Shown: piece by piece, positions 1-64,000 of the stretch | Position numbering within the stretch: position 1 is the first letter of the stretch | Layout: the number at the start of each line of letters is the position of its first letter | Source of the DNA: Taxawa tesnikishii (nom. ined.) | Lineage: Eukaryota; Ascomycota; Dothideomycetes; Dothideales | Length of the DNA stretch: 64,000 nucleotides | Assembly: GCA_030247885.1 (NCBI GenBank) | Contig: JAPDRO010000001.1 | Coordinates: 2,170,001-2,234,000, forward strand | Direction of reading: 5' to 3' | Translations under genes and position numbers: made by a program | Notes under the pieces: generated by a model | Told to the model about the DNA's origin: nothing | The model's input: the letters and a program-made list of their open reading frames with translations, nothing else | Database searches by the model: none

Positions 1-1054
1 ACGCCACACACAGAACCCATGGAAGCCAGTTTGTCAAGTCCTTTGGAAAAGGAATGGCAGACATGCGGGCGCCGATTCCGAGGCCCTCGAAAGACTGATG
101 AAAGATGAGGACGGGATAGAGGATTTTCCACTCGTCGTCGGCCACCCCAAAATTGAGACCTGCCCGGACGGTCAGCATCACAACACACCACACTGGATAA
201 CGACGATTGACAAGCCGTACCGATGAAAACGGAATGAAGAATGATGCCAGCTTCCATGATAAAGAAGGCCATGAACTGCTGCCGAAAAGCAGTCCTGTTC
301 AGCTCGTCTGAATCGGCGACAGAGACAGCGTCGCCCGCTCTCGTAACCTTCCTGTAATGGTTGCGGTCATCGTTACACTCGCAGTTGACTTCCTCGTCTT
401 GCGTGCGCATGTGTGGAGCTCCGCCCGACGTGATTTCCTGGCAACGATAATTTCCTCGACGCTCGTCGCCGTCTCAAATCCATACTTCTGCCTGACATAT
501 TCCTGGCAGCTCACGTCTACAAGGAAGACAGCCATGCAAGAAGTCAGGAGGATTGCAGGGGTCCAGGAGTAGGCCGACCAAGCCCCCGGGGTCATGCCGA
601 CACAGGTATACGGACCGATTGAGCTGTACGCAGGATCAAGCCTGGAGGGAGGAGGGTAAGAAACCGATTGCGAGAAAGACGTTAGTGCAAGAGCGTTGAC
701 AACGTACAGATGAACGAACGCAGTAGCCACGATGACACCGGAACCGAAGTATCTTGCGAAGAGGTAGACGTAGCGCGGTATGCTGAGCCACCTTATGCGC
801 TTCGCGAGGACCGGGAAGACTGTGGTAGCTGTAGACACAATCTAACGTGGTTCACTATTCAGTCCAATCTTCGTCGACAGCTGCAGAGCGCAGTCCGGCG
901 TTGCTCTCACTCACAAGAATGACGAGCAAGGCCGATATGCGTCCCCTAAACCACCAGTGTATCCATTTTCTGACAGTTGCTCGTAGCAGGCAACATCTCG
1001 GGGACTCGCCGTGTCGAGGTCGACGTTGTGCGGGTCGAAACCTGGAGTGAACAT
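1..1054 (-). CDS. ZIP-family zinc/iron transporter (3' end beyond window)
   Basis: Plasma-membrane or organellar divalent-metal (zinc) uptake carrier of the ZIP family. The start chosen gives MFTPGFDPHNVDLDTASP, followed by TM1 (RISALLVILIVSTATTVFPV), TM2 (RYFGSGVIVATAFVHL), a loop with LDPAYSSIGPYTCVG, a TM near YSWTPAILLTSCMAVFLVD, then FIMEAGIIFHSVFIG and the family signature HQSFEGLGIGARM; the C-terminus lies off the left edge. Introns read at 842-914, 642-707 and 160-220 restore perfect continuity. Two frame breaks remain, at the CCCC run 943-946 (GLG to RIS) and the CCC run 424-426 (cytoplasmic loop), each as if one G were missing. The family call is firm; whether the gene is intact depends on whether those breaks are real. 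Confidence 0.85.
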
Positions 1055-1779
1055 AGCGGAACGTGTGTGATTGGTATAGGAAACAAATAGGACATGTCTG
1101 CGTTGAAGGACGACTTGATACCATTTTATACATGCAACCACTTGAATAAATTCTGTGTATACCTTGATGGCACACATAACACCCTAGTGGGCAACTACAC
1201 ACAGGGCAGGCGTTGCGGAAAGGGTTTGGCAGAACATCGGCATTATCATGAAGACCTACATGGGCGAAGACGGGGGCCACCGAAATTGTCGTAGGAAAAC
1301 GTGACAAGCGAAAATCGTACCGTCTCGTTCCCTCAGAGAATCTGGAGCGAACTAGTCCAGAACAGAACTCGAGTCGAGCTGAAGTGAAGCTCAAATGATG
1401 CCATAACGAAGTCTAGCCAGACTGAGGATTAGGTGAAGTTCAAGTGCTTTGGATGGCCTCTGCGATATCTCAAGTCCTGCTCGCACCCCTTTGTTGCCTC
1501 ACAATCGTGTTGGAAAGGACTTGCTAACGCTCGAGGAGGCATTTTGGTCAGGTTTGCTATAGAGGTCGCCAATCGCAAGCTTTGAACGGCATCAACGAGC
1601 GTTCCGTATACGAACGTGGATCTCTGCCATCTCAAGGCGATATCTCTGTTTGATCATACAAAACAATTTTTCAAGTGCCGGCAGGACCCAACGGATCTAC
1701 TCCTACATCTTAGCTCCTTCGCATGACCCTGCTTCCGGCGAAGGATCTCGACTAGGCTGAGCAGCCCGGATCACCAGAA
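1055..1779. other. Intergenic, upstream of the ZIP gene
   Basis: 725 bp with only short overlapping ORFs that show no protein-like composition. It should hold the promoter of the leftward ZIP gene and the 3' end of the next leftward gene. I see no clear motif. Confidence 0.4.
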
Positions 1780-2466
1780 TCATCTGGAAATGCCGTTGAT
1801 GAAATCGTCTTGGGCGCAGAATCCATAAGGGCAAGCTTGAGCCATCGTCAGTCGATACGAACAGCACAGCCCGGTGGACTTTTGACATATAATCTGGGTG
1901 TCGATATCAGCCACACCAAGTAACGCACAGTCCTGGAGAGTGAGAGTCTCGCAGGAGCCGGGTAGTTTGGGGCTGGGCAGGTTCACGACAATGCCATCAG
2001 CGACGATCATGCTCCCCAGGCAACTGCGGTACTATAACTGAAGGTACTCGTCGGACTGGCCGATGATGCTGTTCCAAAAGCTGTCGGAACAGGGGAACAT
2101 GTTCGTGTAGGAGTAGGGATAACCGTGGTCGTGAAGGTTGTGATGGAGGTCACAATGGTTGTTAATGTTGTGAGTGCGATGACTGTCGACGTACTTGTGG
2201 TCCTGATGACGGATGTGCTGGTGGTGGCGACGCTGACAGTGGAGGTTCGTGGTGTTTCGATGCGCGAGCACAGAGTGCTAACGAAGGCTGAAGCCTGCGC
2301 TTGGAGACTTGAAAGTACTGAAGCCATGGCATTGTTTGTCGGAGTGGGCTTCGCCGTCGTGGACGTGCGTACTTCTCCAAGATACGCCAGCCACAGACTT
2401 ACCGCACAGAAATCGAGGACATGGAAGCACCGTGGTCAAGGTTGAGACACCAGACACAAAATGCAT
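1780..2466 (-). CDS. Putative secreted Ser/Thr-rich protein with Cys-rich tail
   Basis: No family recognised. Exon 1 begins MHFVSGVSTLTTVLPCPRF and, after an intron at 2318-2402, continues CVLSSLQAQASAF, together giving a short hydrophobic N-terminus that could be a secretion signal. A stretch of about 60 residues is dominated by Thr/Ser/Val (TTSTSVIRTTSTSTVIALTT), as in O-glycosylated cell-wall or mucin-like proteins. The C-terminal part has spaced cysteines (GSCETL, LQDCALL, IICQKSTGLCCSY, ACPYGFC), suggesting a small disulphide-bonded domain. The two halves lie in different frames; the switch falls on the CCCC run 2014-2017 and fits one missing G. Role in wall or host surface is inference only. 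Confidence 0.45.
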
Positions 2467-2486
2467 GCATTGAAAGATCCTCGAAG

Positions 2487-2867: not shown

Positions 2868-2910
2868 GCTCGAAGGCGACTTCAGGAGGTACCGCCTGGA
2901 TTCCAGGCAG

Positions 2911-2949
2911 CCTAGATCCAGTTCAGTCCATCCATTAGCAACCCTAGCA
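2911..2949. repeat. Second, diverged MITE right end
   Basis: The segment cctagatccagttcagtcc-atccattagcaaccctag closely resembles the inverted complement of the MITE left arm (2487-2522). It lies about 50 bp beyond the first right terminus, so a second or nested copy of the same element family once ended here. Confidence 0.4.
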
Positions 2950-4656: not shown

Positions 4657-6991
<2,335 letters not shown>

Positions 6992-7224: not shown

Positions 7225-8703
7225 ATGGCCAGGAGACGAGTAAAGAAGCGCACTCATGTCGGCGCAAAGGCAAGGAACCGCTCCCGGGCAGCGGTCCAGC
7301 AAAGCCCGGCGACAGGTCACCGAAGAGCATGGTCATCCGTATTGGCGCCGGTGAAGTAGGACCAAGCGTGTCGCAACTGGTGAAAGATGTTCGAAGTATG
7401 ATGGAGCCAGGCACAGCGAGCAGGTTAAAAGAGCGGCGATCGAACAAGCTTAGGGATTATACAACTATGGCTGGACCACTCGGTGTCACGCATCTCATGC
7501 TCTTCTCACGATCCGAATCTGGAAACACGAACATGCGCCTTGCCGTAACACCGAGGGGGCCAACGCTGCATTTCCGGGTGGATAAGTACTCTCTTTGCAA
7601 GGACGTCAATAAGAGCATGAAGAGACCAAAGCTGAACGCTGGCGCCGAACATCTTACTCCTCCTCTTGTAAGAAGCAGCAGTTCTCCTCTCGTTGCCTCG
7701 CTAACCCAATGCACAGCTCGTCATGAACAATTTTAGCACAGCGCAAGCGCAACAGGAAAAGAGTGAAGGATCCCACATCCCCAAACAACTCGAGTCGCTC
7801 GCAACAACCGTGTTTCAGTCTCTTTTCCCGCCCATATCGCCGCAAACCACCTCTCTCAAAACCATCAAGCGCGTTCTTCTCCTCGATCGCGTGAAGGCCT
7901 CTTCCTTGGACAACGGCTCACATCCCTTTACCCTGCAGCTCCGACACTACGCTATCACAGCCACAACACCCAAATCCGCGCTTCCAAAAGCCTTGCGCAG
8001 GCTCGAGGCCGCGTCGCATCTCACCCACGGACAGAAGCGCGCACTCCCAAATCTGGGCCGATTGGACGACGTAGCGGACTACTTGCTGGATCCAACCGCG
8101 GCAGCGGGCTTTACATCTGCAAGCGAGAGCGAAGCAGACACGGACGCCGAAGTCGAGGTTCTAGCGACAGAGTCACGACGCATACAATCGAAGGAGGAGC
8201 GCCAGCGTCAGCGCGACGCGCAGCGCGCCAAACTCAGTGGCGAGGCGGCACGAGACAAGCCCACCGTTAGTAAAGAGAAGGAGAGCGGCAGCAGGGTGCA
8301 GAAGAAGGCCATCAAGTTAACAGAATTGGGGCCGCGGATGACGTTGAGGTTGACAAAAGTCGAGGAGGGTCTGTGTGGTGGAAAGGTGCTGTGGCACGAG
8401 TACATACAGAAGAGCAAGGCAGAGGAGAAGGAGTTGGATGCGAAGTGGGAGGTCAGGAAGAAAGAGAAGGAGGAGAGGAGGAGGATTCAAAAGGAGAACG
8501 TGGAGAGGAAGAGGAAAGAGAGGGGTGGAAAGGGTGAAGGTGAGGGGGACGAAGATGAAGAGATGGAGGATTACGATGAAGACGACGATGTTTGGGACAG
8601 CGAGGGCTTTGAAGATGATGATGATGAACAGGATGTGGTCGAGGGAGGTGCGGTAGAGCGCGACGAGGGAGATGAGGAGGACGAAGGTGAGGAAATGGGC
8701 TGA
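7225..8703 (+). CDS. SSF1: Ribosome biogenesis protein Ssf1 (Brix domain)
   Basis: 60S pre-ribosome assembly factor of the Brix family, acting in the nucleolus on 27S pre-rRNA. Start MARRRVKKRTHVGAK is the typical basic N-terminus; it is followed by PKSMVIRIGAGEVGPSVSQL, RLKERRSNKLRDYTTMAGPL and GVTHLMLFSRSESGNTNMRL, and an intron at 7668-7716 joins LTPPL to LVMNNFST. The C-terminal third is highly charged: basic coiled region (KEKEERRRIQKENVERKRKE), then an acidic tail rich in Asp/Glu. Between ATGH and PKSMV the frame shifts by one, best explained by one missing C at 7305-7307. Family identity is certain from the central Brix signature. Confidence 0.94.
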
Positions 8704-9036: not shown

Positions 9037-10545
9037 ATGGGTTTAGCGTCCTCCGCAGCCCCTCACAGCCAGGGTTTGGTTGACGGCAAGCCAGTGTCCT
9101 TCACCTACCAACGTGCCGGCGACGCAGGTGAAAGAGAACTGAAGTTTGCGGATGAAGAAGACCGTATGTTGTCCACTCGGTCAAAACGTTGATCCACAAA
9201 CTCACTCTTCTCTAGAACTCTCCGACCGTTGGACTACGATCTCTGCTAGTAACATCATCGGTGTTCTCCTGTCCATGCTGAATATCCAGACGATTATTCT
9301 GTCTTATACACCACGACAGCCCCGGCAAATACGTCTTCAAAACCGCTGCCGACCTTGAAGTTCATTGTAGCAACCAGGCTTCCGACTGACTTCATCCACG
9401 ACTTCAGCCCATCCGGGCTGTCCTGCTGGCAAACCTGGAGTGACCGCAACCCACGAGAGACTAACCTGCACGTCATTATATCGGTAGCATCCGGCATCGG
9501 TCAGGCTGATTCGTTTTATCGTGACGCTCTGCAACCTCTACTGGCGCACGCGGGCGGCTTAAAGGCAGACGTGGACTACTCTGTTCATTACACCACGTCT
9601 GAACACACCATCACGGAGCTTACAAACAACCTTTTCCTTCCACGTGCTAATCGAGGCATCAACCAAGTCATTATCTTACTCAGCGGTGATGGCGGCATCG
9701 TCGATATTGTCAATGCACTGTGTCGGGGCCGAAGGATGAGGCAGTATGTCAGACCCAACGTGGCCCTCATCCCACTTGGCACCGGCAATGCTCTGGCTCA
9801 CTCTTTACCCATCACTAGCGACAACACTATGGGTCTTATGTCCCTGCTGCGTGGACACCATCAGCCTCTACCACTGTTCCAAATCACCTTCTCACCAGGG
9901 GCGCGGTTGCTCGTGAACGAAGGCAGCGAGGAACGTGAATTGTCTGAGGGTGATACACACGGTCAGCAGCCCATGATGTGGGGCGCAGTCGTGGCTAGTT
10001 GGGGGATGCACGCTGGACTAGTAGCCGACAGTGACACAGCCGAATACCGTAAGTACGGCGTCGAGAGATTCCAGATGGCTGCAAAGGAGGCACTGTACCC
10101 TGCGGACGGATCGGCGCCGCACAAGTACCGGGGTCGTGTTTCTGTGCTTCGGAAAGTGGCGAACAGCGAAGAGTGGCAAGAGCTGGAGAGGAAGGAACAC
10201 GCTTACGTTCTGGCTACTTTCGTTTCGAACCTGGAGAAGGGCTTCACCATCTCTCCGGCTTCGGAACCGCTCGATGGGCGTCTGCGACTGGTTCACTTCG
10301 GGCCGATGTCCGGAGACAGAGTTATGGAGGTGATGGGGCTTGCATACCAGGCAGGCAAGCACGTCGAGCACGAAGCCGTGGGTTACGAGGAAATTGAGGG
10401 CCTGAAGATCTCGTTTGAGGGCAACGAGGAGGCGGGGAGGTGGCGGAGGATATGCGTCGACGGGAAGATCATCCGTGTGGAAGCTGGAGGTTGGGTCGTG
10501 ATGAAGAAGGAGCACGAGCAGGTTGTGGATATAATCTGCATGTGA
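9037..10545 (+). CDS. Lipid kinase, diacylglycerol/sphingosine kinase catalytic family
   Basis: Predicted ATP-dependent phosphorylation of a lipid hydroxyl (long-chain base, ceramide or diacylglycerol). The glycine-rich nucleotide loop SGDGGIVDIVNAL and the following LIPLGTGNALAHSL are the DAGK catalytic-domain signatures; WGMHAGLVADSDTAEYRKYG and the C-terminal region ending in VVDIICM complete the fold. Start MGLASSAAPHSQGLVDG precedes an unusually short intron at 9174-9215. The first part (DRWTTISASNIIGVLLSM) and the main body (LKFIVATRLPTDFIHDF) are one frame apart; the switch can be placed at the CCCC run 9320-9323 (one missing C) or at a cryptic intron. In the nucleotide loop the usual E-x-x-N-G is D-x-x-N-A. 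Substrate cannot be told from sequence. Confidence 0.85.
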
Positions 10546-13900: not shown

Positions 13901-14394
13901 GAGCTGACCGACTTGGCCAAGAGCACTCAGGGATCAAACAGTCTGAGTAGCAGGCACAAGCTTGACAGACAAGCAAGCTCGGTCTGGGATGACTCGTACT
14001 TTGAGGGGACGGACGAGGATGACGAGGACGAGGAAGGATTCGGAGGCATGGTGCAGCGATTATTCAACCCTGGTAGAGGGGAGGCCGGGCAAACGGACAG
14101 CACGGAGGCCGACAAAGCACTCCTCGTGCTGTACACTCAAGCGATCTTGAAGGCCATCGAGGCTTGCAACCCACCAACTCCAGCTCTAGTACTATAAAGC
14201 CGCCGTCCAAGGCTCGTGTTGCAGAAGAGCAAGAGCCTGGAGATGCTGATCCCGAATTCACGGGTCAGTTGACAGAAGAGCCCCAGAGCCTGGATGCGCG
14301 ATCTGCGGAGAGCCCTGGGAGCGCGATTGAAGTGGGCTTGAGGAAGAGTATTGAGGAGCAAATCAGTCCGCCGAGGCGCAAAGGCACCAGGTGA
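10903..14394 (+). CDS. ROG1-like serine esterase/lipase (DUF676)
   Basis: Predicted alpha/beta hydrolase acting on acyl lipids. Exon 1 (MLLVHQAGSVKVGEVV) joins after the intron 10953-11013 to RYTLTYTPSADRILPSPSHL, the family's N-terminal beta domain. The hydrolase core starts with HLVILTHGLHSN (oxyanion region), contains the nucleophile elbow FIGHSLGGLIQTYAIAY (GHSLGG) and SNVVNDGIVPLRTSCL near the expected Asp. A long, low-complexity, Ser/Arg-rich insertion follows. The main frame stops at 14197; a second frame continues in protein-like sequence (KPPSKARVAEEQEPG ... SPPRRKGTR) to 14394, reachable if one C is missing at 14170-14172. The alternative is that 14197 is the true end. About 1,150 residues, long for the family. 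Confidence 0.85.
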
Positions 14395-15341: not shown

Positions 15342-15344
15342 CGA

Positions 15345-15394
15345 GCGAGACCGAGACCGAGACCGAGACCGAGACTGAGACCGGGACTGGGACC
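15345..15394. repeat. Tandem GAGACC hexamer repeat
   Basis: About eight copies of a GAGACC-type unit, the last ones degenerate (gagact, gggact, gggacc), between the hypothetical ORF and the BPL1 3' end. Confidence 0.85.
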
Positions 15395-15461
15395 GCCATC
15401 CTCTTGCACGCACCAACGTCCCCTCTCGCGCAAGAAATAGCCCTCTGCGGACAGTAAAACC

Positions 15462-17715
15462 CTACGTCTTCCTCTTGACCAGACCCTTGAAGAAATCAAA
15501 ACTGTTGCTATCACTCTGGAGTTCCCACTTCTTCCCCGTCGGGCGATCTTCCCAACCCAACTCCTCCGCAACAAGCAAGCCCCAATCCCTCGTGATGCCC
15601 TTTATCCTCGCCCTGGCGCCCCCTGCGTCTCCAGCGTTACGATCTGATCCGAGTGCAGCCAAGACTTGTAGTACATTTCCTCGAACTCCCTCGAGAAACC
15701 CTGTCGGCAGAATTTCCGGTACAGAATCTCAAACTGTACGAGGATTACCGCAAGCAGTTTCTCCAGCGTGAAAGGCGGCAGCTTGGCCTTCGCCGCCAGC
15801 GCGTTCAGCGACGTGGTCGGCGCGGCATTGGTCACGTTCAGCCCAACACCGGCCACAAGCGTGTAATCGCCCCCGGAGTAGGAAGAATTGACGAGAATGC
15901 CGCCGATCTTGACGTACGTCTTGTCGGCGGCGGGTTTGGTGGGATCGAGCGCGTAGATGTCATTGGGCCACTTGAGTTTCACAGGCAGGTTGCCGTAGCC
16001 GCGGTCGTAGGATTGGATTCCGGAGACGATGGCTAGGGCCGCGAGGTACTGAACGAAGACGACGGGAGCGGAGGAGGTCATGGCGAGCGGATGCCGGATC
16101 ACGGTGCTGAACATGAGGGAGCCGGGTGGGGAGACCCAGACATTAGAACCGCGGCCACGGCCGGCTAGTTGGGTCGTCGCTGTAGCGGTGAATCCGGCGG
16201 GGAGATGGTTGAGGAGCTTTGGGTTTCTGGGAAGTTGGTTCTAGTAAATGGATTGAGACAAGATGTGGATACAACTCACTTTTCCAGCAAGGTGTTCGTG
16301 CTCGTGACGACTTCGCCGTACAGTAGGACATTGCCGAATGATGCGTCGACGTTTCTCGATATCGTGCGGTTGTAGTGCTGAAGGTTTGCGAAAAAGGCGT
16401 TGTGGTTGAAATACGGCGTTTGCTTGCTCTCCGGCAGCGAAGACTCGTGCAAAACAAGTCGTTTGACGATCTTGTCGTAATCAACGATCTTGTCCGTCAA
16501 TTCATCAGGATTGACCAGGTCCTCGACAGCGTCTGGATTTTCGGATGCGGAAGAATCTGAGGCAACACCAGGCAGGACGTTCTTAACTGCACTAGGAAGT
16601 GCCTTTGCCACATTCGCCATACTCCACGCATCCGGCTTTTCGAGGCGGAAGGTATCGTTCTCACCCTTAATGTGTTCTTCTCCATCTTCAACCGTGATAA
16701 CCTCTGAAAAAGAAGCTAGAATGTCCGACACGTTCGACAATTGAGTCGAAGAAAGGTGCAATCTGGACAAAGATGGTACTGCCTGGTTGTCCTGGCTAAC
16801 TCTCAGTCCAAGCTTCGCCATGCAGGCCTTCATGAAGTCGGTGCGCTGCTTGTCATCAGCTGCAAGTGCATCGACCGTTCTGGAGTACTCCGGTGGGCCA
16901 TTTTCCTTGCTAAGGTTGATTGCCGCGAACCTGGATTCTCTTTAGCATGAATCCCGAGAAAGCCCTTGTACGAATGCTCTTACTCGGGATGCGGTCCAGT
17001 AAGCAAGACATTGCCCTCGCCAACCTTGCAATAGACTACAGCAGCCTGGCCCTCTCCTGGATCGACATGCACTTTCTCGGTATAGTTGGCAAGGATCTCG
17101 ACACCCCGGTCCGCGAACTTCTCCGCATCAACGAAGACTCCGCCACCGTTGTAGTACGTGCGGAAGACCTCTGGTACTGCTCCGCCAGCGGTGACAAGTG
17201 ACTCCTTATTGACCTTGAGCTCGGCCGCTCGTGCACCGGCTTCACTGTGATAGACAAAGCCGGGGAAAGCCAGACCTCTGCAGGTACCTGGATAGAATCC
17301 GAGTTCTCGGTCACCCACCACCTCCATGCCCTTTTTGCCCTCTTCGAACTCGCATCTTCTGCATGCGTAGTAGCCACCAGCACACAAGCCTAGGTAAGCA
17401 CCGCCTTTGTTGACGTACTGAGAGATGCGCCGGTTGCCTTCACCGTTCAAAGTACGGCAGTAGCCCAGATCTGCACCACCCGGCATCACAAAGAGAGCAC
17501 AGGATGCGGTCCATGGCTCCCTGATGACAGCATCCCCTGAGATTGGGATGATGGCGTAGTTGGGTCCGAGCAAGCGACGAAGAGACCACAAGCAGTGGCG
17601 AACAGATTCGACGGTGGCGCCACCACCTGAGAGGGCAATTAGATTTCAATGCATCAACTCAAGGTTTCCGCAACACACCAGAATACACAAGAACATTCAC
17701 TCTTTTGTCTGACAT
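15462..17715 (-). CDS. BPL1: Biotin-protein ligase (holocarboxylase synthetase)
   Basis: Attaches biotin to acetyl-CoA and pyruvate carboxylases through biotinyl-AMP. Start MSDKRVNVLVYSGGGATVES; the first 230 residues are the BPL_N glutamine-amidotransferase-like domain (VMPGGADLGYC, GAYLGLCAGGYYA). The catalytic half has GEVVTSTNTLLEKNPKLL, the nucleotide motif TQLAGRGRGSNVW, LKWPNDIYA and KIGGILVNSSYSGGDY, and ends in the C-terminal domain (RARIKGITRDWGLLVAEELG). Introns: 17627-17678, 16931-16983, 16227-16279. Between VTLETQG and GARARIKG the frame shifts at the CCCCC run 15619-15623, as if one G were missing; without it the protein would lack its last ~50 residues. Otherwise full length. 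Confidence 0.95.
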
Positions 17716-33700: not shown

Positions 33701-36273
33701 GTAGTCATTTGTGGTTGCTTCGTGTTCGACACGGAGATCGAAAAGTTCTTGGGAGACGGTCTCTAGCTTATCAGCCACGAACTTTGACTGGGCATCTTCG
33801 GTCGTCTCGGGTTGGTGTGAACCATCCGTAAGAGTGTCGACAGCATCAAACTGCAAACTGTCGTCATTGACCAGATGTTCTGAAGCGTTACCGAAGTCCA
33901 AGTCCAGATGGTCTCCGTTGACCATTTCCTCTTCAGCGACAGTGCCGTTGGCATTCTGGTCATGGAATGGATCGCTGAGAACCTTCTTGTGTCCATTCGC
34001 CTGCTTCTTGCCGTTTTGCTTCTCGATGTGTCGAACGCTATCAAGTTCTGCAAGCAAATTGTCCAATCTGCCGATGCTCCTTTGGCGTTCCACGACACGT
34101 TCGAGGCGATCAATTTCTCTTTGCATGATCTCCTGATCTTGTTCCGCCTCCGCCAACCGTTCCTCAAGAGTGGAAATATAGTCTTCTGCGCTTCCTTCCT
34201 GCTCTTTGACACGAGCAAGCTCCTTACGAAGGCTTTGGACCAAAGCAGCGCTCTTCTCCTCATTGCTCGTGACACCTTCCATCTGAGTTTCCAAGTCACG
34301 CAGATAAGCATCGTTGCTGCTCTCACGCTCAGCCGCCTTCTGGAGCCGTGCCTGCAATTGCTGGATGAGGGTTCCCATGTAAGCGATCTTGCTTTCCTTT
34401 TCCATCAAAGCGCTCTCGCTGTTGGAGTAAGAGGATCTCGTGGTGGAGACCATGTTCTCGAGGGTCTGAATAGTAGTTTCATACTCCAGGACAACTGAGT
34501 CGACGGCTGCGGCAAGAGTATTCGAGCGCTTGAGCCTGTCAAGCGCGCTGTCTCCGATAGCATCTCTCAAAGCCGGTGTTTCCGCGGCCTCGTCATCGCG
34601 TGCCTTTGATATCTCTGTGATCAGCATCTGGTGGCGCTTGCTCAAAGTATTGTAACTCTCTTGCATATCCATAAGCTGGTTCTGGAGTTCGACCTCTCGG
34701 CGGTTATTCCGGTCATTGCCCGTAAAGGTTTTTGACTCCAGACGTTCATGTTTGATCTGCTCCCTGAGGAAAGCAACCTCCTGTTGCAATCGCTCAATAC
34801 GGCCAGCTTTGTCGGTGTCGTCCGCAGTCTGCTGGATCTCCGGCTTGCTTTGAATTGCTCGTGCGCGCTGGGCATATTGTACCGTGTTGAGTGTCTCGCT
34901 TAAATGGAACTCCGCGGGCGTGACACAAGCGATCATGTAAGTAATAGCATTGCCCCCAAGAGAGTCTTGCAGCAGACGCGTGAGGCGAGAATCACGGTAG
35001 GATACGTGTGTTCCTGCATGGCGGGAAGACAGTTGGGATATGACCTTGCCGAGACTTGCGAGACCAGCATTGATTGATATGCCCTCCTTTGCTCGCTCTC
35101 CTTGTGCACCAGTGTTCTTCAATCTTTCGCTTCCTGCCAAGTCAACGAAGTGCAACTTGCTGTCTGTAGTAATCGTTGCGTCCGAGCCGGCCAGAGCCTC
35201 CACAGGGACAGAGAGTCGCTTGTCCAGTTTCGAACCTTGACCCTTTTTCTGCACCAGATTTAAGCTGAAGATAGCGTGTGACCGGGAAGACTTAGCGTTG
35301 ATCGCCGTCGAATCTGTCTGGCGGATGGATGATCCGAACTTCAGAGCTCCGAGCAAGTCCTCTACGGAATTGATGTTGATCTGGGTTAATCCGGTCAAGA
35401 GAATTCGGCCTTTGGTGTCCTCCCTAATCGTGACCTGGTTTCGTTGCTCTTGGGAAGTTTCCGCCGAAATCAGGAGGTCGCGTAGTTGCTCGTTGTGGAT
35501 CTAGAGATACCATCAGAGGAGCGTTGCTGCCCAGGCTTGTCCATACATACCTCAACATAGGTGGCCTTCAGCTGCCAGTCTTTTTCAGCGTTCGACGTCT
35601 TGCTCAAGCTTTGAAGAGTCGGGAGACCGTGTGTTGAATATCGTTGCGGCATACGGAGACTCGATCTTGGACCCGATTGACCTGAAAGCTTGTCGAAAAG
35701 AGCAGTCGCCGCTCGGGGGACTATGCCCACAAGACTAGGGTTGTTCTGATCTCCATCTGTTCCCATTGTGAATGACTTGCCCGCTCCGGACTGGCCGTAT
35801 GCGAGGATGGAGACGTTGTAGCCCTGGACGAAAGAGTTGACGCTGTCGCTCAAGTAGTCCCATACACCCTCTTGTGTTGCTTCTCCCCAAACACCCTATC
35901 GAACACAAAAAGTTTCTTGCCCTGTGGTGACTGAACTGTGAGATTGGTAGGAGAGGTGACTTCACACGTCGAGCCGCGGAACCGCTGCGGTATGAGATCG
36001 TATCCTGAATCTGTAGGACCGAGAGGAGGTCGTACTCGGACAGCTAGGGACAAGGTGAGTACACAGACATTTCTGCATCCCACGTGCCTACGTACCAACT
36101 TTGACCGCGGTCTTCGCGTCGTCGTCGGAGGATCTACTCAAAGTGCTGCTCCCTTGGCGACTTCCAACGCTCATGCGACTCGAGCTTCGTGGGGAGCGCA
36201 TGGTGTCTCGCGACGGCCGATGGTGATGGCCGTTCATGGGAGCCATGGGAGAGGCAGGAGGTGACATCTCCAT
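30713..36273 (-). CDS. Kinesin motor protein with very long coiled-coil tail
   Basis: Microtubule plus-end motor of about 1,800 residues. A Ser/Arg/His-rich leader (MEMSPPASPMAPMNGHHHRP) precedes the N-terminal motor: AVRVRPPLGP, P-loop AYGQSGAGKSFTMG, switch I INAKSSRSHAIFSLN, switch II FVDLAGSERLKNTGAQGER, then a neck. About 1,300 residues of predicted coiled coil follow (heptads rich in Leu/Glu/Gln) with a Pro-rich break near LPSPPPAIPLPPLPGSPNLG and a basic end (AGKKKKKGTLNCF). Introns: 36044-36095, 35501-35550, 31391-31441; the last is 51 nt, in frame and stop-free. In the motor the frame breaks at CCCC 35885-35888; one more G gives VFGGEATQEGVWDY, the conserved sequence. The N-terminal motor excludes the minus-end Kar3 type; the subfamily is unresolved. 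Confidence 0.93.
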
Positions 36274-36887: not shown

Positions 36888-36962
<75 letters not shown>

Positions 36963-45002: not shown

Positions 45003-47181
45003 TCACATGCGATCGCGTGAAGGGATGAATCGGTCACCTTGAGCCAGAGTACCACCGCCGCGGCTGCGAGACATGGTACATTGTGGTTTGGTGTCCTCGG
45101 CAGACATGGAAGCCAAGGCCTCGCAAACTGTCAGCAACACATAGTTCATTCGGTATGGAAGCAGGGTTTTACTTACGAATGAGTCGGTGTTATGCGCAAA
45201 GTACAGGAATGCACCATCTGCCGTCTTTTTGACGCAGAGGATACCAATAGCGCCAGCGGAGTTGCTGTTTTTGACACTGGGATGACCTGACGCCATCAGT
45301 ACGTACACAAATCTGGGCAATGGCATGGAAGAGCTCACCCATGAACTCCGTCTCGATTGCAGACGCTATCGCATCCTCGTCACAATTGGCTTCCTCGAAA
45401 GGGGCGCCACCTCGTCCTTTCTTAACGCAGTAATATAGGCGCTGAGCGAAGACCGTCGCAGCCATGGTCGTTGCCATGTGTTCTCCAGTTCCGCTCGTCA
45501 CGGCAGCCACGGAGGTCTGATCTTTGTCCTCAGGATCCTGAGGCACCACAGCAGCGCCGACTCCCACCAGTGCGGCCGGGCCGATGCGTCCACGATGCTT
45601 CATGCCGATACCACCAGAGGAGGCGCCACAAGCGACGTTACCTGAGCTGTCGATCGCAATCGCGCCGACGGTGTCGGTGACATGGTCCTCTCGCTCGTTA
45701 GGTTGGGCTTCGTCCTGGGATGCTGCCTTGCCCGACCGAGGAGTCGCGGGAGCCTCAGGCGGAAAAGGTGGGTACTCGTACACGTGCGCTAGCGGGGTAC
45801 GTGTACGCGGCGTTGGTGACTCGATCCTCTTTTCTTCGGGGGTATCAGGTAGGTTCAATATGAGTGCTTCGAGGGGGTGTGCTGCCAGTCTCAGAAGCCG
45901 CCTCTGGAGCGGCTGTAGTCATCGCGGACGTCGTAGTAGTGGAGGCGGACTCCTGTCGAGGCTCTGGGCTCGGAGTGAGAGACGGGAGCTTCATGGAAGT
46001 GGCAGTGGAGCCGGAAGTCTCAGAAGCTGATGATCCGTCATGCCAGCTGTGTCTGTCATGATGGGCATCGTTCAGATCGCCCATTGGTATTTGGTTCCTG
46101 TCTTCAGCATCACTCATTTCCAGGTCCGATTCGAGAGACTGCGTGTTGGAGCTATGTCCGTCATCGCTAATGATGGACTGGGTGCTGTTGATGAATGGGC
46201 TATGCGAGGCTTCTTGAAGCCGTCTCAATGGGCTTCGGGGGTCGACAAACGTGCCAGACTCATAGATAGAACGTTGGATCAAATCTGGCGTAGTACTTGA
46301 GGAGCCTCTGCAGGTACGGGAGAAAGTAGATGCCGCTGCCGAGTTGATTGGAGAGTCATCAGAAGATGGCGGTGGTGAGATTGGCTGTGCTTCGTTCCAA
46401 ACCGCATCTTCCATCGACTTGACGTATGCACTGCGGCTGCTCTCGTAGTCGCGCTCTTCCTGCAGTGGATCCGGTTCGTAATCTGGCCCGGATGACGGTA
46501 CGTATGTTCTTCCTTCAGCTTGTTCTGCCTTGCGCTCGGCATGTTTCAGGTCCTGTTGCCATCTACGCCAACGTTCGAGTGCGTTTGGCGAGGTCAAAGC
46601 ATCGTGCGGCAACACAGGCATGCCAGCCTCGTACGCGAAATCAACCGCTCCCTTTCCGACGAGCAAGTTCGGTGGCACACGACGCAGGCTGAGGGGTTGC
46701 GTACTGTGATCTAGAATCGTTCGAGCAAGGGAGATTGGGTTTTTCATCTCTGCGCATGATCAGGGTTGTCGGTCTCGCTCGAGAGAAGTCCAGGCGTACT
46801 CACGAGAGACTGCTCCAGCGCCGCCACTGCGTCCATAGTGATCAACCATTACAGCATCGCACTCAACGGTACCGTCCATTGCCAAATTGCTCCCGTAACC
46901 AGCATTTGTGATTTCGCGGTCCTCAAGAACCCTGATCGCCATTTCAACAGCATCCACGGCGGAGCCCCACCCCTCAAGATAGCCATGCCTGTCTTTGCAG
47001 CACTACCGAATGGTCAGAAGCCTTGACACGTTGAACCCAGGCCAGCCGTTACTCACTCGTTGCAAGCTTGTAGGTGGATGTGCTCGTTGGTGACGCTATG
47101 GTACCCGGCTCCTGCATGCACGAAGATGCACGGCACGACGCCGCTCTTCTTGTTTCTCTTGTGATGGAACATGTTTTGCAT
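45003..47181 (-). CDS. Threonine aspartase (taspase-1-like, asparaginase-2 family)
   Basis: N-terminal-nucleophile hydrolase predicted to self-cleave before a Thr and act as an endopeptidase after Asp. N-half: VPCIFVHAGAGYHSVTNEHI, EMAIRVLEDREITNAGYGSN, MDGTVECDAVMVDHYGRSGG. C-half begins DTVGAIAIDSSGNVACGASS (the Thr in DTVGAIAID is the predicted nucleophile), then GGIGMKHRGRIGPAALVGVG, TSGTGEHMATTMAATVFAQR and TKPQCTMSRSRGGG. Between them is a Ser/Thr/Pro-rich insert of about 250 residues. Introns: 47003-47056, 46750-46803, 45287-45338, 45120-45176. Frame breaks at CCCC 46965-46968 (one G missing) and at the G5 run 45873-45877 (one extra or two missing). Two in-frame start codons, at 47181 and 47172. 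Confidence 0.88.
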
Positions 47182-48161: not shown

Positions 48162-49804
48162 ATGGCCAACCAGACTCCGGCCGTTGTCATGGACAAGTGA
48201 GCTTCAACACGACTACTCTACATACGCTCAGTACTGACTCCAAGGCAGCGGTACGGGTTACACTAAGCTGGGTTTGTCTCTTCTCTTCCAACCCCTTGTC
48301 TACACCCACTTAATGGATACCCAGGTTTCGCTGGAAACGATGCGCCATCTTGGGTATTCCCCACCGCAATAGCCACGAAAGGCCCTGCAGGAGGTGCTGG
48401 AAGCTCCGGATCTGGCAGGCCAGCGGTTGCGAACAAGCCTTCGTTCCTTACTGGTGGTGCTGGGCCGAGCGGACACCTTTCGGCCAAGAGGGGGACGGAG
48501 GACTTGGACTTCTTTATTGGAGACGAAGCCCTCGCGGCAGCAAGTGGACCCGGTACATAATCTCGAAGAAATGGGAGTTTTCTTGTAGGTCAACGGAGCT
48601 AAGGGGTAACAACAGGTTATGGCATCAACTATCCAATACGGCATGGACAGATCGAGAACTGGGTTAGTTATACTGCATCTTTGGTGGTGGGTTGTGCTGA
48701 CTGGCAGATAGGATCTTATGGAGCGGTTCTGGTCAAACTCGATGTTCAAGTATCTCCGGGTCGAGCCTGAAGATCACTACTTCCTGCTTACTGAACCGGT
48801 ATGCATACGTTCTGATGTTTCGCGTATGCTAGGGTCTAACGCGTTATAGCCCCTCAACCCTCCAGAGAACCGCGAAAACACCGCAGAGATCATGTTCGAG
48901 TCGTTCAACTGTGCTGGTCTTTACATTGCCGTTCAAGCGGTGCTTGCCCTCGCTGCTTCATGGACGTCCTCTAAAGTCCAGGACCGCTCACTTACTGGAA
49001 CAGTCATCGATTCCGGAGAGGGAGTCACTCACGTTATTCCAGTAGCAGAAGGATATGTCATTGGGTCCTCCATCAAGAGCGTACCTATCGCTGGACGCGA
49101 CATCACTTATTTCGTTCAGAGCCTTCTCCGTGACCGTGGCGAGCCAGACAGCTCCCTCAAGACTGCGGAGAGGATCAAGGAGGAGTACTGTTATGTGTGC
49201 CCTGACATCGTCAAGGAGTTTGCGCGATACGACAGGGAACCGGACCGTTTCGGCAACCACACCGTCACACATCCCAATGGCAAGTCGGTTGTCGTCGAAG
49301 TCGGATACGAGCGTTTCCTCGCACCAGAGATCTTCTTCAACCCTGAAATTTACTCTTCTGACTTCCTGACGCCTCTGCCAAACATTGTCGATACCGTCAT
49401 CCAGACATCGCCAATCGACGTCAGAAGAGGATTGTACAAAAACATTGTGCTTTCCGGGGTTCGACATTGTACGAGAACTTCGGTCGCAGGCTGCAAAGAG
49501 ACATCCGACACCTGGTAGACGCTCGCATAAAGGCATCCGAAGCCAGAAGCGGAGGTGCAAAGAGCGGTGGTCTGGATGTGCAGGTCATCACGCACAAGAG
49601 GCAAAGGCATGGACCGTGGTTCGGCGGCAGCTTGCTCGGCCAAACGCCTGAGTTCCGGAGCTACTGCCACACCAAGGCAGAGTATGATGAGATTGGACCA
49701 AGGTAAGTTGTGTTGCAGGAACGCTGCTGTAGTAGGCACCCGCTAACGCGTTACACAGCATCGTGAGACGGTTTGCACTCCTTGGTGGACCGGGAAGCAG
49801 CTAG
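48162..49804 (+). CDS. ARP3: Actin-related protein 3 (Arp2/3 complex)
   Basis: ATP-binding subunit of the Arp2/3 complex, which nucleates branched actin at endocytic patches and hyphal tips. Seven exons. [20 protein letters not shown] and [19 protein letters not shown] (phosphate loop 1), [58 protein letters not shown] (phosphate 2), the adenosine motif [18 protein letters not shown] and the C-terminus [15 protein letters not shown]. Introns: 48197-48248, 48272-48324, 48553-48615, 48663-48711, 48799-48849, 49703-49758. The adenosine motif is interrupted at the GGGG run 49456-49459; one more G restores SGGST. In an essential gene this argues for a sequence error. Confidence 0.96.
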
Positions 49805-55506: not shown

Positions 55507-56117
55507 ATGGGAGGGAAGCATTCCAAGCCGCAACCACCAGTGGTTATCTACCCTCCCCAACCCGCCTTTCCTCCAGTCCCTCCATATGCGCCAGTGGCGC
55601 CAGTTGCGCCAGTTGCGCCAGTTGTGCCACCTGCGCCACCCATGTACCCATATGCGTCACCCTACCGTCCACCGTATCCACCGCACGCTGGTCGTGCTGC
55701 TTCGGTCGTTATCAACGGCAACCCCGACGGTGCGAAAATCTTCGGATACTTCTACAACGGGACTATTGTCGCCTGCCCTCCTCGGGCCGACATCGAGGAG
55801 CGCGACTGCTACGACGGCAAGGGCGAGCTAGTCGTCCACGTGGATGCCAAAACGGCCGCCGAGTTCCCTGGACCACGTTCGAAGGCGCCCTCGAGGAAGG
55901 CACCGTCAGAGCCGTCGACCCGAATGGCACCGCCGTCGAACACCTGCAGGACATGATGGAGCGCAGCGGCAGCGAGCAGTTGGCATGGATGGGCTTGATG
56001 GACGCGCTTGCTGCTGGTATCGTCGATGACAACACCGTGGCCAAGCTCGGATACAGCGCCCCGGACCATCCTGAGGAGGAGGAGACCAGAGTCCACAGCC
56101 GTGACTTTGCTGTCTAG
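55507..56117 (+). CDS. Pro/Ala-repeat protein with N-myristoylation-like start
   Basis: No family recognised. Starts MGGKHSKPQPPVVIYPPQ, where G2 and the small/basic following residues suit N-myristoylation. A tandem array of about nine-base units (55584-55630) encodes APVAPVAPVAPV, followed by PPAPPMYPYASPYRPPYPP. A folded-looking domain then begins: ASVVINGNPDGAKIFGYFYN, GTIVACPPRADIEERDCYDG, KGELVVHVDAKTAAEFP. The frame shifts at the CCC run 55866-55868; the next frame continues coherently as WTTFEGALEEGTVRAVDPNG, TAVEHLQDMMERSGSEQLAW and GLMDALAAGIVDDNTVAKLG to DFAV. Read this way the product is about 204 residues. Membrane attachment is an inference. Confidence 0.6.
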
Positions 56118-58017: not shown

Positions 58018-59580
58018 ATGGCGGACAGACTCCCAATTCCTCTCCCACCTCGGACACCTACTCCCCGTCTGACCCAGAGATGGACCAGGACAACATGGGA
58101 TTAGGCATTGGGACCACTCCTGGACGGCCAGCCAGTCTCAGGTTCGACATGACCTCTCCCATCGCCTCAGACGCACCGGATTCCGGAGGAAGCAGATCAG
58201 ATATGCTCTCGCCTACCTTCTCGGTCGCACAGAGCCCGGCAGGCTCGCTATACAGCCCCATCACGCCGCAAAGTGCCATGAGCGAGGGCCAGTTCAAAAG
58301 TATTGGAGAGAGCGAAAATGCCAGGAATCCATTCAACTTCACAACACAGCAGTATACGGCTGGGAGGGCGGGTGCGGCCAGATCTGTGAGTAAGCAACCG
58401 GTACAAGGCTATGGGAAAACGCTGACAGGCGAAGGATATGGGAAAGCGCCGCGGCCACAAGTACAAGCATAGTAGCATATCGCACCAGATCTTCCTCGAG
58501 CCTCCCCTCGAGCCCCACTGCAATTGCCCGCTTCCTTGCCAATGCCGACTAGAAAGGAGGTGTACAGAAGCATGACGAACGAACAGAGATCGCGTCTGGT
58601 CTGGTGTCTGTGCCATTTCCTGGTTGCTGCCTACGTGCAGTGGAGCGCCCATGAATCATTCGCCATGATTGCGCTTTCGCGGCTGCTACTGTTCGACGCG
58701 ACAGGCGCTGTTGCTTGTACGATTGTGGACATGATGGGCAACTTTGAGGTGTGGAAGCGATCGAGTATCAAACACCCATTTGGGTAAGTTCACATCCGGA
58801 ACGCTTTGACCTTTCCCATCGCTTACGATTTGCAGACTTGAGAGAGCGGATGTTCTAGCAGGCTTTGGCCTCGCAGTCTTCATCTCATTCATGGGGTTGG
58901 ATGTGTTATCTCACGCCATCGAGCATGCGCTGGAAAACCAGGGAAACCACGTGCCTCATTCCGTCCATCATCACACACGGATATCGCCTGGCTCCATTGA
59001 CATCGCGGCACTACTTGCCATCGTCTCTACGCTAGTTTCCGCCCTTCTACTTAAGAATCACGCACGGGTCGGCAAAGCGATGCGTTTGGAATTCATCGCA
59101 GGCTGGGGCAAGATCTTCGGCAACCCGAGCCATTTCCTGACATTGTCCTGCTCTACTCTGCTTCTACTACTCCCGCTGCTCAGCATCAAAACTTACACCT
59201 GGTTCGACACAGTCCTATCCCTCACAATCGCGCTCACCATGATTGCGTTTGGAGTCCGCCTTGGCACTTCCCTCGCGTCCATGCTCCTCATGTCCTACTC
59301 CGGCTCCCGCAGCGGTGCCTCCATTTCCGAGATCATCTCGGAAATCGAATCCGAGAACAGCGTTACGGGCGTCGACGAGGCCAGGTTCTGGCAAGTCCAT
59401 TACGGTCTCTGCATGGCGAACCTGAAATTGCGGTATAGAGGTGGCGGCGGGTACGGAGACGAGGTGACAAGACTTAGAGACCGCGTGGTCAGTCTGGTCA
59501 GGAACAGGCTGGGCGGCGGGTACGGTGGCGGGGGTCAGAAGTGGGAAGTGTCGGTTCAGCTGGCTCTGGAACGGGACTGA
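58018..59580 (+). CDS. Cation diffusion facilitator, Zrg17-like zinc carrier
   Basis: Predicted subunit of the Msc2/Zrg17-type zinc transporter that moves zinc into the ER/Golgi. Start MADRLPIPLPPRTPTP. Disordered Ser-rich region, then RRGHKYKHSSISHQIFLEPP, and the membrane domain: WCLCHFLVAAYVQWSAHESF, FDATGAVACTIVDMMGNFEV, LAGFGLAVFISFMGLDVLSH, IDIAALLAIVSTLVSALLL, FLTLSCSTLLLLLPLLSIKT and a cytoplasmic C-terminal domain (FWQVHYGLCMANLKLRYRG). Introns: 58386-58428 (only 43 nt) and 58784-58835. Two frame breaks at CCCC runs 58063-58066 and 58504-58507, each consistent with one missing C; the second lies in the conserved QIFLEPP...LPASLPMPTRK segment. Substrate zinc follows from family knowledge. 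Confidence 0.85.
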
Positions 59581-60036: not shown

Positions 60037-61064
60037 ATGCAACGCTCGAACCAACGTCGCCTGTTGATCACCTACACTCGAAGCGGCGAGCCGATATGCT
60101 ACGATCATCATCTGAAGGTTTGTCACGAATGCCATGTCAATTTCACTTACCGTCTAGATGACTCTGTTGATGAAGATGAAGAAGAAGAAGAAGAAGAAGA
60201 AGAAGAAGAAGAAGACGACCTGTCCAAAGGTCCGGAACCCAACCAGGTTGCCGTCTTGAGCGGTTGTGCTGCCCGGTTCACCCCACAATTGGATGAGCAG
60301 GTCTTAGGTCCACCATATGCATCCCAGATGGATCGCACAATGGCGCTGAAGCCTTCTCCGCCTTCTCAGCTTAGTCTGGTTTACTGCCAGAACTGCCAAT
60401 TGACATGGCTCGTTGGTGACAAGGGCGTTCGTGCCGCCGCAAGCCATCCTTCGCACCACACGTACGAGCACCAGTACACAGGCACCCGTCGCTCCCTCAT
60501 CGTCTTCATCGACGGCGCATGCCCCTCCAACGGACGAGCTGGTGCACGCTCCGGCATTGGCATCTTCTTCGGCGACGACTCCAAGTTCAATCTCTCTGCA
60601 CCGCTCGCCCTCTCGGGCCAGCATACAGATAAAAAGCCGATTTACATGCGCTCGTTCAAGCCCTACAGAAAACGCGCTTGGAGGTTATGCCTGAGCGTTC
60701 GACCAAGGTCTTCTCGGCCGATATAGGCTCGTACCCATACAATGCTCGAGACGCTACGAAGCTCCGTCTCATCGTTGCGACCGATTCCAGCTACATCGTC
60801 GAATGCATGTGCGAGCACATCACAACGTGGCACAGGGACGAAGAAGGTGTGTTTCGCAGTGAGAATTCGACAGCCGTCACGAATTCGACCTTGTTCGTTC
60901 GCGTGCAAGAAGAGGTCAAGGCGCTTGCGGAAATCGGCGTGCAGGTCGTCTACTACTGCATTCCAGAGCAGGAGAACGAACAGGCGGACCAGCTTGCAAA
61001 GGTGAGCTGTCAAGAAGAGGTTCTCTGTCGACACGGGCAGTGTGAAAGGCGGAGGTGGGCATGA
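60037..61064 (+). CDS. RNase H-like domain protein with acidic tract
   Basis: Predicted RNase HI-fold nuclease, probably acting on RNA:DNA hybrids or a domesticated relative. Start MQRSNQRRLLITYTRSGEP; CYDHHLKVCHECHVNF and YCQNCQLTW could bind zinc; a poly-Glu tract (about 60176-60213, GAA repeats) follows LDDSVDEDEE. RNase H motifs: SLIVFIDGACPSNG (first Asp), KADLHALVQALQ (the Glu position is Asp), RLIVATDSSYIVECM (Asp) and NEQADQLAK (final Asp). The frame shifts between TDKK and ADLHAL at the AAAAA run 60631-60635, as if one A were missing. The 3' end is uncertain: a 39-nt intron after LAK or simple read-through both give a stop near 61064. Confidence 0.72.
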
Positions 61065-61782: not shown

Positions 61783-63957
61783 CTAGCGGCCAGACCTCTC
61801 TCTTGTCCTCTGTCTGCGCTCCTTCTCCTTCTTTTCGTCGTATACGAGGAACTCGTGGAGGGCGCTACCACCGGGCACCATGGGAAGCACGGGCACCTTC
61901 TGGTCAGTCACGACCTCAAGGAGTGCCGGGCCGTCACCACTGCCCTCGATCAACCACTTCAAGCTGTCCTCGAGATCGTCGATCTTTGTGCAGCGGCGCG
62001 CCTTGACGCTCATGGCCTCGGCGAGCTTGACGAAGTCGGCATTACGCTGGTGGGTGTGGGCGAAGCGGTCGTTGTAGAAGAGAGATTGCCATTGCGTGAC
62101 CATACCCTGCTCCTCGTTGTTGAGCACGATGATCTTGGCGCCGATGTTGAACTCTGCAGCGGTCGACAACTCGGTGAGGGTCATGCTGAAGGAAGCATCA
62201 CCGTCAACATCAACGACGAGCTTCTCGGGGCAAGCGACCTTGGCACCGATGGCGGCTGGGAGACCGAAGCCCATGGTACCGAGACCACCAGAGGTAATCA
62301 TGGAGCGTGGCTCCCGCCACCTGTAGTGCTGTGCGGTCCACATCTGGTGCTGGCCGACACCAGTGCAGATAATGGTCGACTCCTTGCGGTGTGCGGTCAG
62401 GTCGGAAAGCTTGCTGATGACGGTCTGGGGCTTGATGAGGGAGTCGGGACCAGACTCCTTCTCGTACGCCCATGGAAAACGCTCCTTCCAGAAAGCGATC
62501 TGAGAGAACCACTCGCTGCGGTCAGACTCAGATCTCTTCTCCACCTGAGGAAGCAGGTGGCGAAGGTTGGCGGTGACGTCACCCTCCACAGCCTCGTTGG
62601 CCTGAACGACCTTGTTGATGTTCTTGGGCATGATTTCGAAGTGGACAATACCTCCACGGCCCTCAGTCGCGGCTTGGCGAGCCTGAGGGGCGAAGCGCGG
62701 GACGTGGCCAGTGATACGGTCGTCGAAGCGGGCACCGAGAGCGAGAATCAAATCGGCTTCCTGCATAGCCATGTTGGCGTAGGCAGATCCGTGCATTCCC
62801 AGCATGTGAAGAGCCTTGGGGTCAAGCTCGTCGAAACCTCCCAAACCTTGAAGAGTAGTAGTAACTGGAATCTGTGCCCTGTCGGAGAGCTCCCTCAAGA
62901 GCTTTGGACCGTCAGGGTGACCGAGAATGCCCTGACCGGCGTAGATGACTGGCTTCTTTGCGATGTTGATAAGATGTGCTGTTCTTTGGAGAGTACCCTC
63001 AAGCTGCCTCCTGCTAAGATCGCGCGCTGCGAGGGTAGCTGCGCTTGGGTGGGTTGGGAGAGTGCTGGATACCGGGATGGGTCTGTTGAGGGTGGCGCCA
63101 GTGACGTCCTTGGGCAGATCGACGAGAACTGGACCAGGCCTGCCAGACATTGCGATCTCGAACGCCTCGTTTATCCGCCTCGGAAGCTCAGCAATATTCT
63201 TGACCATGACGTTCCACTTTGTGCATGCTCTTGAAATTCCAACAATATCTGCCTCTTGGAAAGCGTCGGATCCGATTGCCGTAGTTGGGACCTGCCCGCA
63301 GAATACGACCATTGGTGTACCGTCCATCAGAGCGTCCTGCATGGGAGTAATGACGTTGGTTGCGCCAGGGCCAGAGGTGACGAGAACAACACCGACTTTA
63401 CCGGAAGCGCGAGCGTAACCTTCGGCCATGTGGCCTGCTCCCTGCTCGTGGCGCGGAAGGATGAAGTCGAAGTTCTTGGAGTTGTAAATAGCATCGAACA
63501 CGGGAAGAATGGCACCGCCAGGGTAGCCGACTGTGTCACCGGTCAGTCTTTTGTTCGTTGAGAGGGGTGGGATTGGGAAAGACTCACAGACGTGCTTGAC
63601 GCCATGCCTGAGCATCATCTCGTGGAAAATCTGGCCACCGTTCATGCCCACGAAAGAATGATCCATTTCGGGCTGGCGGAAAGGCTGAAGCGGTGAGATG
63701 TCGTTGTATCTTTGGGCATCTTGCCTGTTGAAGGCTGGGCTGGGCACAGCTCTCGCCGGTGCTCCCTGTGCAGCAGCCATGGAGGCGGACTGCTCCTTCT
63801 TCGTCGACTCGGAGACGTTCCTCTGCTGTTGGTGCGATTTTTGGATCTGGGAAGTCTTGCGGTACGGCGAGACGGCTGCGGGAGCTGGGGTGGTGGAGAA
63901 GCGGCGTGCGCGTGGGAGGCATTGGAGCGCCCTCCTCGGCGCTTGAGCTTGCATCAT
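61783..63957 (-). CDS. ILV2: Acetolactate synthase catalytic subunit, mitochondrial
   Basis: Thiamine-diphosphate enzyme condensing pyruvate (to acetolactate) or pyruvate plus 2-ketobutyrate: first shared step of valine, leucine and isoleucine synthesis in mitochondria. The presequence MMQAQAPRRALQCLPRARRF is Arg-rich and non-acidic. Catalytic Glu in PRHEQGAGHMAEGYARASG; GPGATNVITPMQDALMDG; FAD/central domain PVIYAGQGILGHPDGPKLL; the ThDP-Mg motif VDVDGDASFSMTLTEL ... VLNNEEQGMVTQWQ. The C-terminus ends in a charged extension (KKEKERRQRTRERSGR). The intron 63531-63587 (57 nt) is in frame and stop-free; removing it restores KHVFGYPGGAILPVF. The conserved start is the ATG pair at 63955-63957. 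Complete, no frame break. Confidence 0.97.
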   Translation of the reverse strand: MMQAQAPRRALQCLPRARRFSTTPAPAAVSPYRKTSQIQKSHQQQRNVSESTKKEQSASMAAAQGAPARAVPSPAFNRQDAQRYNDISPLQPFRQPEMDHSFVGMNGGQIFHEMMLRHGVKHVCESFPIPPLSTNKRLTGDTVGYPGGAILPVFDAIYNSKNFDFILPRHEQGAGHMAEGYARASGKVGVVLVTSGPGATNVITPMQDALMDGTPMVVFCGQVPTTAIGSDAFQEADIVGISRACTKWNVMVKNIAELPRRINEAFEIAMSGRPGPVLVDLPKDVTGATLNRPIPVSSTLPTHPSAATLAARDLSRRQLEGTLQRTAHLINIAKKPVIYAGQGILGHPDGPKLLRELSDRAQIPVTTTLQGLGGFDELDPKALHMLGMHGSAYANMAMQEADLILALGARFDDRITGHVPRFAPQARQAATEGRGGIVHFEIMPKNINKVVQANEAVEGDVTANLRHLLPQVEKRSESDRSEWFSQIAFWKERFPWAYEKESGPDSLIKPQTVISKLSDLTAHRKESTIICTGVGQHQMWTAQHYRWREPRSMITSGGLGTMGFGLPAAIGAKVACPEKLVVDVDGDASFSMTLTELSTAAEFNIGAKIIVLNNEEQGMVTQWQSLFYNDRFAHTHQRNADFVKLAEAMSVKARRCTKIDDLEDSLKWLIEGSGDGPALLEVVTDQKVPVLPMVPGGSALHEFLVYDEKKEKERRQRTRERSGR

Positions 63958-64000
63958 GGTGGCACTAAGAGACGTGAAGTCAATTGGGTATCTCAAGAAA

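Follow-up and report, generated by a model that had tools for sequence, protein, structure and literature searches.

One-base breaks in the reading frames of conserved genes in the window studied here (the whole stretch of 64,000 nucleotides, G000:C1:2170001-2234000, from an assembly of 29.37 Mb in 34 contigs) are very probably errors of the assembly consensus, in which homopolymer runs were called too short. According to this explanation, runs of a single base, chiefly G or C of true length about 4-6, would have been recorded one base short, and each run so written would give an intact gene an apparent one-base shift of its reading frame. Errors would become more likely as runs lengthen, in coding and non-coding DNA alike, and the genes of the organism would most likely be intact. 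The result fits a data-quality problem rather than a new genetic mechanism, and is an ordinary finding. The window has a guanine-plus-cytosine (GC) content of 0.544 and, as read from its gene content, appears to be fungal.

Position of the listed breaks on homopolymer runs

A sequence-only reading of the window had listed 16 places at which a conserved protein seems to continue as if one base were missing, and had assigned them to short runs. All 16 coordinates proved to be the start of a homopolymer run: the G/C runs were of length 3 at five sites, 4 at nine and 5 at one (C5 at 15619), and the remaining site was an A5 run. The pieces in both frames were compared with Pfam profiles and PDB chains. 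In addition, the sequence was decoded with a coding-frame hidden Markov model (HMM) that was trained on the sequence itself and was blind both to runs and to the list of 16 sites; its settings ranged from strict to loosest, with -7 and -6 among them, and a site was counted as called if the call lay within about 30 bases. In the decode, introns were short (median 69 bases) and the coding share was 54%. The sites are as follows.

424..426, minus strand: ZIP-family gene; C3 (G3 in sense), two frames matched by the Zip profile, at 13-102 and at 134-195
943..946, minus strand: ZIP-family gene, 5' part; C4, frames by reading against a ZIP motif
2014..2017, minus strand: putative secreted protein; C4, run confirmed, break by reading only
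6567..6570, minus strand: RRP3/DDX47-like DEAD-box helicase; G4, DDX47 pieces one base out, HMM call at 6550 (loosest setting)
6982..6984, minus strand: RRP3 N terminus; G3 near the break, HMM 'missing' call at 6952
7305..7307, plus strand: SSF1 near its N terminus; C3, Brix in the downstream frame, upstream frame by reading
9320..9323, plus strand: lipid (diacylglycerol) kinase near its start; C4, break by reading only
14170..14172, plus strand: DUF676 lipase near its C terminus; C3, HMM 'missing' call at 14162, DUF676 on one side only
15619..15623, minus strand: BPL1 after the ligase domain; C5, BPL upstream, HMM 'missing' call at 15618
35885..35888, minus strand: kinesin motor domain; C4, HMM call at 35860
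46965..46968, minus strand: taspase/asparaginase-like gene; C4, Asparaginase_2 match starting at residue 9 in the downstream frame
49456..49459, plus strand: ARP3; G4, both pieces cover residues 332-335 of S. pombe Arp3, HMM call at 49457
55866..55868, plus strand: P/A-repeat gene; C3, HMM 'missing' call at 55870
58063..58066, plus strand: Zrg17-like gene near its start; C4, run confirmed, break by reading only
58504..58507, plus strand: Zrg17-like gene; C4, run confirmed, break by reading only, Cation_efflux downstream
60631..60635, plus strand: RNase H-like gene; A5, RNase_H in the downstream frame, HMM 'missing' call at 60647

Nine of the 16 sites showed two-sided homology or an HMM call, and at two further sites (7305 and 46965) the family match started, in the new frame, at the run or within a few residues of it. 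At the other five (943, 2014, 9320, 58063 and 58504) the continuation across a missing base was followed by reading alone. The tests contradicted none of the 16, and the observation as a whole was confirmed. In the Pfam comparison, the Zip profile was matched on both sides of 424, where the break falls in a loop. The family was found on one side only at 7305 (Brix), 9320 (DAGK_cat, only downstream and far from the break), 14170 (DUF676), 15619 (BPL), 35885 (kinesin), 46965 (Asparaginase_2) and 60631 (RNase_H), and the pieces around 943, 2014 and 55866 had no Pfam match. The downstream frame of SSF1 matched a fungal Brix/SSF1 chain from chain residue 29, directly after the run at 7305; its N-terminal piece had no match in PDB. 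The kinesin match began at profile position 52, which corresponds to residue 5 in the downstream frame, and neither the N-terminal nor the downstream piece of this gene gave anything in PDB at the cut-offs used (1e-15 for the downstream piece). Threonine aspartase was among the PDB chains matched by the gene at 46965, a site without an HMM call.

Twelve of the 15 listed G/C runs are C on the plus strand and three are G. This strand asymmetry was considered as a sign of an artefact and dropped, as no consistent bias of this kind appeared when runs were counted locus by locus; an apparent asymmetry in the contig ends described below was accounted for by their composition.

Homology on both sides of the breaks and breaks on other contigs

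The two frames of ARP3 align to residues 132-335 and 332-413 of S. pombe Arp3 (3dwl), without a gap at the overlap, and by arithmetic the second frame arrives at a shared residue one base sooner. The protein sequence flanking this break is highly conserved. Similarly, the frames of RRP3 align to residues 33-80 and 75-125 of human DDX47 (3ber), one base out of register. Because the pieces overlap one base out in both genes, an intron has no room at either site.

Outside the list, every one of the 68 rows listed for five Pfam families, with 54,396 bases aligned in total, was examined piecewise, and 28 neighbouring pairs lay within 1 kb of each other. In 25 pairs there were at least 38 nucleotides to spare, as introns or insertions would give, and one pair was nested. 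The remaining two, in a CCT subunit on contig C1 and an HSP70-family gene on C3, had an excess of exactly -1 nucleotide; no pair among the 28 had an excess between -1 and 38. Internal stops were held by 15 of the 68 rows, and one HSP70-family junction on C1, with the shortest excess of 38, may hide another break in a poorly aligned stretch.

The HMM raised 37 events outside the window, and 11 of these were searched against Pfam, both pieces being used for 10 and a single piece for one. Two showed the same family in two frames and could be placed, two belonged to repeat families (Kelch and He_PIG) in which exact placement is impossible, five had a family on one side only or differing families, and two had no Pfam family. 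Both placeable events, first raised by the run-blind model, are in L015 on contig C14: RPN7 shifts by one base at an A4 run and has strong matches on either side of it, and in TCO89 two weak Pfam matches fit a break at a G5 run, which is probably a further missing-base break. Missing-base breaks were present on C1, C3 and C14.

It is unlikely that short introns, and not indels, went unnoticed at some of the 16 sites, since the pieces overlap or abut at ARP3, RRP3, the CCT subunit, the HSP70-family gene and RPN7 and leave no bases for one. Such introns could still lie at 2014, 9320, 58063 and 58504, and one HMM 'missing' call off the list, at 48306, resembles a weak ARP3 intron. True decay, whether of pseudogenes or of one of two copies, might be suspected from frame breaks within otherwise well-conserved frames. 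We consider it very improbable: the breaks are of one base, biased in one direction and flanked by highly conserved protein, and no second copy was found of ARP3 or RPN7, the two genes tested. The other genome matches of ARP3 were all at or below 43% identity, RPN7 had one genome match only, and the PF00118 list fits, by count, one gene per CCT subunit.

Direction of the breaks

Direction was scored with the HMM in the window and fifteen 10-kb nuclear loci elsewhere, 214 kb in all; the AT-rich L002, the contig ends L018, L019 and L021, the probably mitochondrial L020 and L001, which is part of the window, were left out of these counts. Calls of missing and extra bases stood at 25:2 at the strict setting, 31:5 at -7 and 39:7 at -6, of which the window contributed 6:1 (strict) and 8:1 (-7). 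Thirty further loci of 3.1 kb gave 7:3. The model called six of the 16 listed sites at the strict setting and eight at the loosest (6567, 6982, 14170, 15619, 35885, 49456, 55866 and 60631), all as 'missing'.

As a control, indels were planted in E. coli K-12, and the model assigned them the correct sign. Over four passes, 100 planted deletions yielded 90 missing and 7 extra calls, and 100 planted insertions yielded 67 extra and 22 missing calls. The unplanted background was 5 missing and 1 extra call per pass (about 20 and 4 over four passes); by the annotation, five of these six background calls were at gene junctions and one was in a listed pseudogene.

Run lengths in near-identical contig ends and across the genome

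About 6.3 kb of sequence is common to contigs C17, C18 and C34 at their left ends (L018, L019 and L021, respectively). BLAST gave between 0 and 4 mismatches for each pair and between 12 and 20 gap openings, and the apparent substitutions in the three-way alignment adjoin gaps. After runs had been collapsed, each of the three pairs had 0 mismatches over 4,728-4,744 positions and 1 to 4 gap openings. Real divergence between the contig ends should also bring substitutions. The number of discordant runs, by the longer length of the two, was as follows.

L018/L021, G/C runs of length 1-5: 0/1895, 0/477, 2/92, 2/10, 2/2
L018/L019, G/C runs of length 1-5: 0/1884, 1/477, 2/82, 2/11, 1/1
L019/L021, G/C runs of length 1-5: 0/1886, 1/477, 0/82, 0/11, 1/1
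L018/L021, A/T runs of length 1-7: 0/1661, 0/422, 2/113, 3/33, 2/13, 0/6, 2/5

The coding sequence of the window has 687 G/C runs with an observed length of 3, 120 of length 4 and 20 of length 5, against 5, 9 and 1 sites, respectively, on the list. Taken at face value, the list would mean by arithmetic that true runs of 4 were written short in about 4% of cases and true runs of 5 in about a third, a slope with run length similar to that of the contig ends.

The run spectrum was then taken over 308 kb, coding and non-coding sequence apart. Only 1 of the 75 coding G/C runs of length at least 5 exceeded 5, against 75 of 551 one step earlier; the corresponding figures for non-coding G/C runs were 8 of 101 and 101 of 624. 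Non-coding A/T runs showed no cut-off (50 of 217 exceeded 5). In 50 kb of E. coli K-12, a bacterial and not a fungal comparison, 6 of 36 G/C runs of length at least 5 exceeded 5. Comparison of run lengths with a Markov expectation was suggestive only, and these stepwise extension counts were preferred as clearer. G/C runs of 8-18 were nearly absent from the sample. Three longer tracts, G22 at window position 22281, T14 at window position 30122 and C19 at position 5058 of L011, are either real microsatellites or consensus artefacts.

These data bear on two explanations in which the DNA is as written. In programmed -1 ribosomal frameshifting, a backward slip of the ribosome by one base at each run would allow the complete protein to be made; the frame changes found here have the direction of such a -1 slip, and they lie at homopolymers. 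However, none of the five sites tested (RRP3, kinesin, ARP3, BPL1 and ZIP 943) has a slippery heptamer of the pattern X XXY YYZ when read in the incoming frame, unrelated housekeeping genes are affected, and the run disagreement extends to substitution-free contig ends, as does the G/C cut-off to sequence decoded as non-coding. Frameshifting, described as remote in the sequence-only reading, is indeed exceedingly improbable. Insertional RNA editing in the nucleus, which would put the base back in the transcript, would explain the direction; the contig-end differences in run length only and the non-coding cut-off would be left unexplained, and we know of no precedent in fungal nuclei, for which no search was made. 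It is extremely improbable here. It is likewise scarcely credible that one-base deficits at short homopolymers number in the hundreds to thousands in the nuclear genes and are corrected in expression by -1 recoding or by insertion into the transcript.

Undercalling was best supported because the breaks occur on several contigs, second copies of ARP3 and RPN7 are absent, the bias is in one direction, the error depends on run length, and near-identical contig ends disagree in their runs. The missing-base direction, the position on homopolymers with length-dependent error and the presence in non-coding DNA and elsewhere in the genome are all as undercalling would have them, and the earlier preference for undercalls over decay agrees with the direction, the run-length dependence, the contig ends and the single-copy state of ARP3 and RPN7. 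That preference is refined in that true runs would be of about 4-6. It is further refined in that A and T runs are affected too (the A4 of RPN7 and T runs in the contig ends) and the rate by homology in conserved families is lower than the list implies.

Points against undercalling

Several results weigh against undercalling. All of the evidence comes from the assembled sequence, not from reads, and from it we infer that the cause is an error at the level of reads or consensus rather than the DNA itself. In unplanted E. coli sequence, too, the HMM calls lean towards 'missing' (5 to 1), which we put down to overlapping or adjacent operon genes. This skew and the weak TCO89 matches slightly lower the confidence in undercalling, which is still high. 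The direction, claimed to be uniform, was strongly biased but not fully uniform: an 'extra' call in the window falls at 45888, on a C5 run, where it might represent a two-base deficit, indistinguishable from an insertion. Two window 'missing' calls are off the list, 24064 (at the loosest setting) and 48306, and the latter, as read, is probably the weak ARP3 intron.

Localisation of the HMM calls on runs was weak, with 1.4-, 1.8- and 2.4-fold enrichment at G/C runs of 3, 4 and at least 5, and 1.2-, 2.2- and 1.5-fold at A/T runs of the same lengths; posterior localisation was too coarse to serve as proof of run context and was abandoned as such. Furthermore, the homology rate of 2 in 54 kb is well below the list rate of 16 in 39 kb of HMM coding sequence, although the scored Pfam rows favour well-matching genes.

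The run-length evidence has its own difficulties. Sequence quality may be lower at the contig ends than in the region of the window. Coding A/T runs are also cut off near 5 (5 of 85 exceed 5), so that part of the cut-off may reflect counter-selection of long runs in coding sequence. The few very long tracts mentioned above (G22, C19 and T14) survive. In 5S ribosomal RNA, no shortened G3 or C3 run was found among the 30 best of 47 matches that were aligned, which is as expected if runs of 3 are rarely affected, yet is no positive evidence; 44 of the 47 matches are 120 long, the others 119, 122 and 99. Finally, one published parallel differs in sign, as described next.

Comparison with known cases and consequences

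A study of nanopore-only assemblies of Drechmeria coniospora describes conserved genes that lose their frame, mostly in homopolymers, accuracy that drops as runs of at least 4 become more numerous, and short reads that fixed run lengths (PMC7500977). The likeness to the present case lies in the loss of frame of conserved single-copy genes at homopolymers. In contrast, over-long runs were commoner there after polishing, with more insertions than deletions (PMC7500977), and nearly all breaks here are of the missing-base kind. The Kastor study on nanopore bacterial assemblies reports deletions that cluster after runs of about four to five and fragment genes (PMC12007338), so that, as here, deletions at short runs create apparently frameshifted genes. 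Unlike the present list, in which 15 of 16 sites are G/C, G/C-associated errors were there about half as frequent as A/T-associated ones (PMC12007338).

At a coding share of 54%, a rough extrapolation gives about 600 to 4,300 false frame breaks in the assembly; the lower figure takes the homology rate of 2 in 54 kb and the upper takes the 31 HMM calls in about 116 kb of coding sequence. Gene models, pseudogene counts, proteome comparisons and claims of frameshifting drawn from the assembly would be unreliable until it is polished with accurate reads. The result is therefore a warning and not a discovery. The comparison of near-identical copies after run collapse offers a quality check that needs no reads.

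Other observations

A transfer RNA (tRNA) gene of 96 bases, probably with an intron, lies at 3828-3923 of the window on the minus strand; it was detected with Rfam but not with ARAGORN under the bacterial code. On the same contig, which has 54% GC in the window, L002 (G000:C1:100001-110000) is an AT-rich stretch of 10 kb with a GC content of 0.23.

Contig C25 (80,121 bases, of which L020 is the first 10 kb) is AT-rich, tRNA-bearing and probably mitochondrial. Its tRNA matches are mirrored around about 14.1 kb and 49.6 kb, giving units of about 35 kb placed head-to-head, and this arrangement is either a fold-back chimera or a real concatemer. Contigs C26 and C28 have another tRNA cluster in common, offset by 25-27 bases.

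L003:5670-7802 and L016:6866-8999 are copies of a dispersed repeat and are 95% identical. Of their 103 mismatches, 84 are unidirectional G-to-A or C-to-T changes, a pattern that resembles repeat-induced point mutation.

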